A stretch of DNA of 7,406 bases from contig JALTZH010000010.1 in NCBI GenBank assembly GCA_027051265.1, positions 1 through 7,406 on the forward strand. Reading direction: 5' to 3'. The notes under the pieces are model-generated. The model worked only from the letters and a program-made list of their open reading frames with translations, had not been told where the DNA came from and searched no databases. This document shows positions 3,017 to 4,728 of this stretch, one piece after another; positions within the stretch are counted from its first letter, which is position 1; each line of letters opens with the position of its first letter. The DNA comes from an archaeon (lineage in GTDB: Archaea; Hydrothermarchaeota; Hydrothermarchaeia; JALTZZ01; JALUTC01). Position numbers and translations under genes: made by a program.

Positions 3017-3244
3017 ATGGGTCGTGTAAAGAATAGTTTAATCAAGAGAATTGCACGAGAATTGTTTGAAAAATATAAGGATGAAATAACCGGTGATTTT
3101 TATAAAAATAAAGAATTATTAAAAGATATAATTCAGGTACAAAGTAAAAAATTAAGAAATCAAATCATCGGATACGTTACAAGACTATACCATATTGAAC
3201 AAGACAGGATGAAAAGATTGGAAGAAGAGCTTAGAAGTAGTTAG
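3017..3244 (+). CDS. rps17e: Small ribosomal subunit protein eS17 (S17e)
   Basis: This is the archaeal and eukaryotic small-subunit protein S17e, absent from bacteria. The 75 residues follow the family almost word for word: MGRVKNSLIKRIARELFEKY (1-20), the central DFYKNKELLKDI (27-38) and the most conserved segment SKKLRNQIIGYVTRL (43-57). The family core ends near residue 60; the rest, IEQDRMKRLEEELRSS, is a charged, probably helical tail somewhat longer than in many archaeal homologues. The start is fixed by the family N-terminus and by the ribosome-binding site just upstream. dapA follows after 22 bases on the same strand, so the two are likely transcribed together. Pairing of S17e with dapA also occurs, to my recollection, in Methanocaldococcus-type methanogens. 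Confidence 0.95.
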   Translation: MGRVKNSLIKRIARELFEKYKDEITGDFYKNKELLKDIIQVQSKKLRNQIIGYVTRLYHIEQDRMKRLEEELRSS

Positions 3245-3266: not shown

Positions 3267-4151
3267 ATGCTAAAAGGATGTTTCACTGCAATAGTTACAC
3301 CTTTTAAAGGTACGGATATTAAGAGTGAAATAGATTATGATTCCTTTAAGTTTTTATTGGATTATCAAAAAGATGTCTCTGGAATAGTGGTATGTGGAAC
3401 AACCGGTGAGTCTTCAACATTATCTTATGAGGAACATAACAAGTTAATAGAGTTTGCACTGGAAAATTATAAAAACATCGTTATTGCTGGAACAGGATCT
3501 AATTCAACATGGGAAGCTTTGGAATTAACAAAACACGCTTATGATGCTGGTGCAGAATATTCTATGCAAGTTGTACCTTATTATAACAAACCAAATCAGG
3601 AAGGTTTATATAAGCATTTTGCAACGATTGCAGAAAAGATTGATATAAAGATTATCCTCTATAATATTCCTTCGAGAACAGGTGCAAACTTAGCTCCTGA
3701 AACGATAGCTAGGTTGTGTGAGGAATATTCAAACATCGTTGCAATAAAAGAAGCGAGTGGAAAAGAGGAGCAATGGAGAAAAATTAAGGAACTATGCAGA
3801 AAAGACTTTATAATCCTCTCTGGAAACGATTCAGATACGTATAAACTTATGAAGGATTATGATGCGAAGGGTGTTGTATCTGTTGCATCAAATATTATTC
3901 CTAAACAAATGCAGGAATTCGTTGAATATGGTTTAAAAGGAGATTTTAAGAAGATGGAAGAATTACATAAATATTACGAGGAATTCTTCAAAATGCTTTT
4001 CATAGATACAAATCCTATACCAGTTAAGGAAGCGATGAACATGTTAAACTTAAGAGCCGGTGGATTCCGTTACCCATTAACCGAGACAGATGAAGAAAAG
4101 AGAAAAATTATTAAGAACGTCTTAATCAAATATAAGCTATTGAAGGAATGA
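3267..4151 (+). CDS. dapA: 4-Hydroxy-tetrahydrodipicolinate synthase (DapA)
   Basis: DapA condenses pyruvate with aspartate semialdehyde, the first committed step of the diaminopimelate route to lysine; it is a cytosolic class I aldolase. The 294 residues have the standard TIM-barrel length and all expected active-site features: GTTGESSTL (44-52) with Thr45-Thr46, the PYYNKP loop (104-109) with Tyr106, YNIPSRTG (132-139) with Tyr132 and the substrate-carboxylate Arg137, the Schiff-base lysine Lys161 in AIKEASG, and NPIPVKEAMN near the C-terminus. Arg137 and the TTGE loop favour true DapA over related keto-deoxy-gluconate aldolases or N-acetylneuraminate lyases, though archaeal members of this superfamily can be multifunctional. 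Other dap genes are not in the window. The stop overlaps the start of the next gene as ATGA, pointing to translational coupling. Confidence 0.93.
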   Translation: MLKGCFTAIVTPFKGTDIKSEIDYDSFKFLLDYQKDVSGIVVCGTTGESSTLSYEEHNKLIEFALENYKNIVIAGTGSNSTWEALELTKHAYDAGAEYSMQVVPYYNKPNQEGLYKHFATIAEKIDIKIILYNIPSRTGANLAPETIARLCEEYSNIVAIKEASGKEEQWRKIKELCRKDFIILSGNDSDTYKLMKDYDAKGVVSVASNIIPKQMQEFVEYGLKGDFKKMEELHKYYEEFFKMLFIDTNPIPVKEAMNMLNLRAGGFRYPLTETDEEKRKIIKNVLIKYKLLKE

Positions 4152-4693
4152 ATAATCACCTAATTCAGAGGTTAAAAAAAATTGTAGAAGAGTTATATGG
4201 TATAAATAAAAACTTAAAAAATAAAAATATATTTTATGCTATAGATTTTTTAAACATAGCAATTCTAGAGCTTGGAGGAGAATTTGAAAGCAAAATGAAG
4301 GAAAGTTTATTACATTTTGTTTTAAAAAAACATGTTCTTAGGAATATAAAAAATATCGAAGGTATTTACTTCGAAGCAAAAGATTTGAAATTTCAAAAGT
4401 ATGGTTATAGACCTGATATCGTATTGATAACGAAGGATGAGATAATTTTTGTTGAAGCTGAGACTAAAAAAGAAAGGATTCCAAAAAAAATAGAAAAACT
4501 TAAATTCTTTTTGAAAAGAATTTCTGAGGAAAAACATTTAGAACCTGTTTTAAAATGTATAAAGGATGGTGATAAAAGATTAAAAGTAATATTTGTTACC
4601 AATAAAGATGTTAATGAAAAATCATTTATGATAGATGGAGATATTGATATTAAAATAGTTAAAATGATGAATGATCCAGTTTCTGAAAGGTGA
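4148..4693 (+). CDS. Uncharacterised protein with PD-(D/E)XK nuclease-like motif
   Basis: I do not recognise this 181-residue protein as a named family. Its start overlaps the dapA stop as ATGA, and AAGGA directly abuts the ATG. The N-terminal part (1-70) is helical and lysine-rich. Residues 86-107 then read GYRPDIVLITKDEIIF, followed by VEAETK: a Pro-Asp strand, a turn and a hydrophobic strand ending in acidic residues, the layout of the PD-(D/E)XK nuclease core. Asp90, Glu103 and Glu105 would be the metal ligands, with a helix containing Glu45, Glu47 and Glu52 supplying a further acid. The lysine of the classical D/E-x-K triad is replaced by Glu105, with Lys107 two residues on, as in a subset of such families with a VExET pattern. 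A later strand, RLKVIFVTNKD (144-154), would extend the sheet. Nuclease activity is an inference. The last codons also encode a box C/D sRNA, which may constrain the C-terminus. Confidence 0.6.
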   Translation: MNNHLIQRLKKIVEELYGINKNLKNKNIFYAIDFLNIAILELGGEFESKMKESLLHFVLKKHVLRNIKNIEGIYFEAKDLKFQKYGYRPDIVLITKDEIIFVEAETKKERIPKKIEKLKFFLKRISEEKHLEPVLKCIKDGDKRLKVIFVTNKDVNEKSFMIDGDIDIKIVKMMNDPVSER

Positions 4694-4712
4694 TGAGTTC
4701 ACCCTTGGCTGA
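4664..4712 (+). ncRNA. Box C/D guide sRNA (2'-O-methylation guide)
   Basis: The segment has the complete archaeal layout with every box perfect: C box ATGATGA (4664-4670), guide ATGATCCAGTTT (4671-4682), D' box CTGA (4683-4686), spacer AAG (4687-4689), C' box GTGATGA (4690-4696), guide GTTCACCCTTGG (4697-4708), D box CTGA (4709-4712). Both guides are exactly 12 bases and the D'-C' spacer is 3 bases, matching the compact symmetric architecture bound by L7Ae, Nop5 and fibrillarin. A terminal stem is weak: GTTAA at 4658-4662 could pair with TTAAT at 4716-4720. The RNA overlaps the last 30 bases of the preceding gene, including its stop, and ends in the convergent gap. It is probably cut from the rps17e-dapA operon transcript, as no separate promoter is evident. 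Targets are the bases pairing with the fifth guide position from each D box. No RNA data are available here, so the call is from pattern alone. Confidence 0.85.
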
Positions 4713-4728
4713 TAATTAATTACGAAGA

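Follow-up and report, generated by a model that had tools for sequence, protein, structure and literature searches.

A candidate dual-guide C/D box sRNA overlapping the 3′ end of a protein gene and conserved between two species of a Hydrothermarchaeota genus

Archaeal C/D box sRNAs carry guides of 10–12 nt, have a short D′–C′ spacer and reach a total length of 50–70 nt (PMC7994747). Most of them originate from longer precursors; for their maturation the box motifs alone suffice and the flanking sequence can be changed (PMC7994747). A reported 25% of archaeal C/D sRNA genes run into the 3′ end of an ORF and include its stop codon, which can fall in any of the boxes; the review gives as the reason the TGA within the box sequences (PMC7994747). 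According to Lui et al. 2018, as cited in the same review, the two guides of a dual-guide sRNA usually act within 100 nt. Helices 90–93 of the 23S rRNA are described by Dennis et al. 2015 (PMC4644070) as a hotspot of archaeal methylation.

Here we analyse a stretch of 7,406 nt from an archaeon of the Hydrothermarchaeota (assembly GCA_027051265.1, contig JALTZH010000010.1), which is referred to as the window. Its sequence lets us suggest with high confidence that positions 4664–4712 of the plus strand are an archaeal dual-guide C/D box sRNA, or more exactly its 49-nt core from box C to box D. The order of the elements on the plus strand is ATGATGA-ATGATCCAGTTT-CTGA-AAG-GTGATGA-GTTCACCCTTGG-CTGA. 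Box C (4664–4670) is followed by the 12-nt D′ guide (4671–4682; ATAATCCAGTTT in the sister species), box D′ (4683–4686), the 3-nt D′–C′ spacer (4687–4689), box C′ (4690–4696; ATGATGA in the sister), the 12-nt D guide (4697–4708; ATTCACCCTTGG in the sister) and box D (4709–4712). Boxes C, D′ and D are the same in the sister species. All four boxes match the archaeal patterns, RUGAUGA for C/C′ and CUGA for D/D′, perfectly, and the guides of 12 and 12 nt, the spacer of 3 nt and the 56-nt extent of the Rfam match agree with the archaeal sizes. This is the architecture that the initial annotation had described, and its coordinates and spacing were exact.

The reading of this segment as a C/D sRNA gains further support from the two following estimates. 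A perfect C-D′-C′-D arrangement is expected by chance 3.4e-6 times per window and 7e-4 times in the 1.46 Mb genome (first-order Markov estimate). The Rfam covariance search, proposed in the initial annotation as a check, gives snoPyro_CD as the top cmscan match with 44.1 bits and E 7e-7, spanning 4660–4715 (56 nt) and model positions 1–58; ten further archaeal sR families and snoCD11, another C/D snoRNA family, match more weakly at the same place. The score stays 0.9 bit short of the gathering cut-off of snoPyro_CD (RF00095), which is 45 bits. This shortfall bears out the earlier expectation that annotation would miss such an RNA. No terminal stem stands out at the ends of the sRNA, and the free RNA folds no better than its shuffles in a type of folding that does not capture kink-turns.

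The sRNA overlaps ORF181, a plus-strand gene of 181 codons for a protein of unassigned family (4148–4693). The ORF ends with ATG ATG AAT GAT CCA GTT TCT GAA AGG TGA, that is MMNDPVSER and the stop, all within the sRNA. The TGA stop (4691–4693) lies within box C′ in both species, as had been noted before, and the D guide is located entirely 3′ of it. The last K codon (4661–4663) is directly 5′ of box C and therefore outside the sRNA, so that of the ten shared codons claimed previously (KMMNDPVSER) nine remain. One segment does serve as coding sequence, stop codon and putative guide RNA, and it is because RTGATGA contains TGA that the sRNA bases can also encode the last nine codons and the stop of ORF181.

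The presumed transcript unit begins with the gene of ribosomal protein S17e (3017–3244, plus strand; Pfam Ribosomal_S17e), followed by a gene of the dihydrodipicolinate synthase family (dapA; 3267–4151, plus strand; Pfam DHDPS), which overlaps ORF181 by 4 nt. The sRNA ends 16 bases before the end of the convergent gene; the downstream neighbour here, an AIR-synthase-related gene, is encoded by the opposite strand. A sigma-70 promoter and terminator scan of the region gave nothing above chance, and its model is not meaningful for archaea. For the ORF181 protein, neither Pfam nor NCBIfam gave a match over the cut-off, a search of named genomes gave none either, and homologues occur in 3 of the 60 relatives. 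The residues RPDIVL...FVEAETK of the protein seem to resemble the core of a PD-(D/E)XK nuclease; at the same residues the sister protein matches Hjc and REase_AHJR-like below threshold. The label 'nuclease-like' given to the protein earlier is still a weak one.

Conservation was assessed with one sister genome (G001), the sole other genome of the same genus. In it S17e, dapA and ORF181 follow each other in the same order, and the RNA occupies the same position. Between the two copies, 46 of the 49 bases from box C to box D are identical. The three differences are all G to A in the sister, at 4673 (outer D′ guide), 4690 (the R of C′) and 4697 (outermost D-guide base), and they are mild. The remaining ORF181 has 64% nucleotide identity between the species, and about 50% of the aligned residues agree. 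With this background 46/49 has P ~1e-6, the positions being taken as independent. The D guide and the D box, which are 3′ of the stop, are kept in the sister, whereas the adjoining sequence diverges at once and the downstream gene there is a different one, on the same strand rather than on the opposite strand. Codon constraint is no explanation for this, and since the untranslated half is included while the flanks have diverged, we conclude that selection acts on the RNA. The initial annotation had named the loss of boxes in relatives that keep the protein C-terminus as evidence against the sRNA; in this one sister genome the boxes and guides are kept beyond codon constraint, including the untranslated part.

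Outside the genus the loci of the ORF181 homologues (genomes G002 and G028) have no strict C/D box match, and the G002 homologue lacks the MMNDPVSER tail. A sequence-only model built from the two copies found no further copy in 23 genomes of the class; outside the genus its hits were either weak and fell on other C/D sRNAs or short and unrelated. The strongest same-order match, at G002, was rejected as it has no proper boxes.

We infer the following course of transcription, trimming, RNP assembly and methylation. The S17e-dapA-ORF181 transcript would contain the sRNA at its 3′ end, and the sRNA would then be released by trimming. Most likely it has no promoter of its own, because ORF181 overlaps dapA by 4 nt and the RNA ends that transcript. 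L7Ae would bind the C/D kink-turn and the C′/D′ kink-loop, and Nop5 and fibrillarin would then join, thus protecting the RNA. In the assembled particle the guides would direct 2′-O-methylation of those rRNA nucleotides that pair with the fifth guide position, counted upstream from D and D′.

As rRNA is missing from the assemblies of the genome itself and of its closest relatives, the guides were matched to class-level sequences, that is 16S and 23S of more distant genomes of the class. In these sequences the complementarity of the D guide to 23S is clear and that of the D′ guide is modest. The best place of the D guide in 16S and 23S is CCAAGGGUGGGG of 23S, with the score of 9.6; it is found in 6 of 6 alignable 23S sequences, the seventh being not comparable there. 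The D′ guide forms a contiguous, partly wobble pairing with GAGCUGGGUUUA of 23S, 37 nt downstream of the D-guide site. The two sites flank the A-loop GGGGUUGUUCGCCC and fall in helices 90–93. Shuffled guides score as well in 3 of 300 cases for the D guide and in 47 of 300 for the D′ guide, and the joint score within 100 nt is reached by 0/300 shuffled pairs with the sister guides and by 1/300 with the window guides. By counting from the A-loop in E. coli numbering, the fifth-nucleotide rule presumably gives G2543 for the D guide (Gm) and U2580 for the D′ guide (Um). We lean towards these two 23S nucleotides as the target pair on the basis of complementarity, although the assignment of the D′ guide target, taken separately, would be weak. 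If the 23S pair is true, the rRNA of the species itself would carry CCAAGGGU and GAGCUGGGUUUA, or compensating changes. The main text of PMC4644070 was found to make no mention of positions 2543 and 2580.

It is also possible, and in our view less probable, that the sRNA is real and its guides act elsewhere, for instance at CAAGGGGUGAAG and UAAUUGGAUUCA of 16S, 21 nt apart, or that the D′ guide has no target. We take these 16S sites to be near E. coli 930–960. As a joint place (alignment columns 893 and 914) they rank narrowly behind the 23S pair, and the sister D′ guide has its top-scoring single site (8.3) in 16S. However, the D guide is mismatched internally there, two bases away from the D box, and scores 8.1 vs 9.6 for 23S, and the joint score is the highest in 23S with the guides of both species. 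A scan of 30 tRNA loci of the genome as targets gave nothing convincing, with lower scores of at most 6.9.

The remaining alternatives concern the RNA itself rather than its targets. Box C, box D′ and the D′ guide fall in coding sequence, so the segment might be no more than a conserved C-terminal coding stretch that spells the boxes by coincidence. Such a resemblance is expected only ~3e-6 times per window. Moreover, C′, the D guide and the D box, which are at or 3′ of the stop, are kept in the sister though the flanks diverge, and the homologue outside the genus (G002) does without the tail. We give this reading a very low probability and regard it as contradicted by the conservation. One may suppose instead that the segment is mainly a cis element, where L7Ae at the kink-turn, or excision of the sRNA, governs how the ORF181 mRNA is translated or degraded. 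Such control is conceivable because ORF181 loses its last codons and its stop when the sRNA is trimmed out, and the overlap forces each transcript to be either a full mRNA or an sRNA precursor. Nevertheless, the guides are kept too, not just the kink-turn boxes, which points to trans targeting, and in reporter tests with other 3′-overlapping C/D genes the effects ranged from neutral to slightly negative (Tripp et al. 2017, as cited in PMC7994747). A mainly cis role is thus very unlikely. Only slightly better, and still improbable, is the proposal that making the sRNA cuts off the end of ORF181, so that guide supply and ORF181 expression are opposed in one transcript, and that the MMN(D/N)PVSER tail exists only for the guide RNA. 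That the tail may be owed to the needs of the guide RNA is by itself plausible, because the G002 homologue has no tail. We retain the guide RNA with trans targets as the preferred reading.

The sRNA at 4664–4712 is the top snoPyro_CD match in the whole genome, with a tail of further matches behind it. The strict box pattern finds about 15 other C/D sRNAs in the genome, and a fibrillarin gene is present (PF01269, E 3.3e-95); therefore, the organism runs a C/D methylation system. Stop-carrying sRNAs with a 3′ overlap make 4 of 16 in this genome: three of them have the stop in box C, and the one described here has it in C′. Across the genus the stop lies in C′ in this sRNA, in either species, and in a second one (L133), and in box C in five.

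Several other C/D loci of the two genomes have arrangements of their own. At L006 (contig C256 of the own genome, 1457–1552) there is a tandem pair of C/D sRNAs with overlapping boxes, where CTGATGATGA doubles as the D box of the first and the C box of the second sRNA; the pair was not found in the sister genome. A 75-nt run in the sister (G001, contig C112, L149 at 1501–1575) combines three 12-nt guides with three copies each of box C and box D, and is either a triple-guide sRNA or two sRNAs with a common middle unit. Its third guide is similar to the D guide in a dual-guide sRNA that is conserved in other genomes of the class (L185, L186, L187). In the own genome CTCGCGACAAA serves as D guide (sRNA at L014, near 1505, minus strand), whereas in the sister it is found as the D′ guide of another sRNA (L133, near 1505, minus strand), which suggests guide exchange between sRNAs.

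The locus adds a well-supported guide RNA to a little-studied archaeal lineage and is a clean case of an RNA conserved in its translated as well as its untranslated half. Two 2′-O-methyl sites adjoining the peptidyl transferase centre are predicted from it, and it demonstrates that the Rfam cut-off misses even the top C/D sRNA of such a genome. The understanding of C/D sRNA biology is unchanged, such overlaps being already described. With stop-in-box 3′ overlaps known for 25% of archaeal C/D genes (PMC7994747), the initial annotation overrated the novelty of this one. The overlap with the ORF 3′ end is not unusual, and the sRNA, newly located here, is an ordinary further example of an established type.

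Three known systems come closest. Like the archaeal C/D box sRNAs of Rfam snoPyro_CD (RF00095) and of the Pyrococcus families sR5, sR11 and sR35, the sRNA has four boxes, guides of the 10–12 nt class, a short spacer and a length of ~50–60 nt; it aligns to snoPyro_CD end to end, but has guides of its own and scores under the curated cut-off, so that Rfam would not call it a member. It resembles the dual-guide sRNAs for 23S helices 90–93 (PMC4644070) in that its two predicted sites, at a distance of 37 nt, fall into this hotspot as well. With the stop-carrying C/D genes of Tripp et al. 2017, as presented in the review (PMC7994747), it shares the stop in a box and probably also the origin from a longer transcript with no need for its own promoter; the stop is here in C′, whereas almost half of the stops in the published survey are in box C (PMC7994747). 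Considering this published share of a quarter of C/D genes and the 4 of 16 in its own genome, we therefore view the sRNA as a well-supported instance of a described type.
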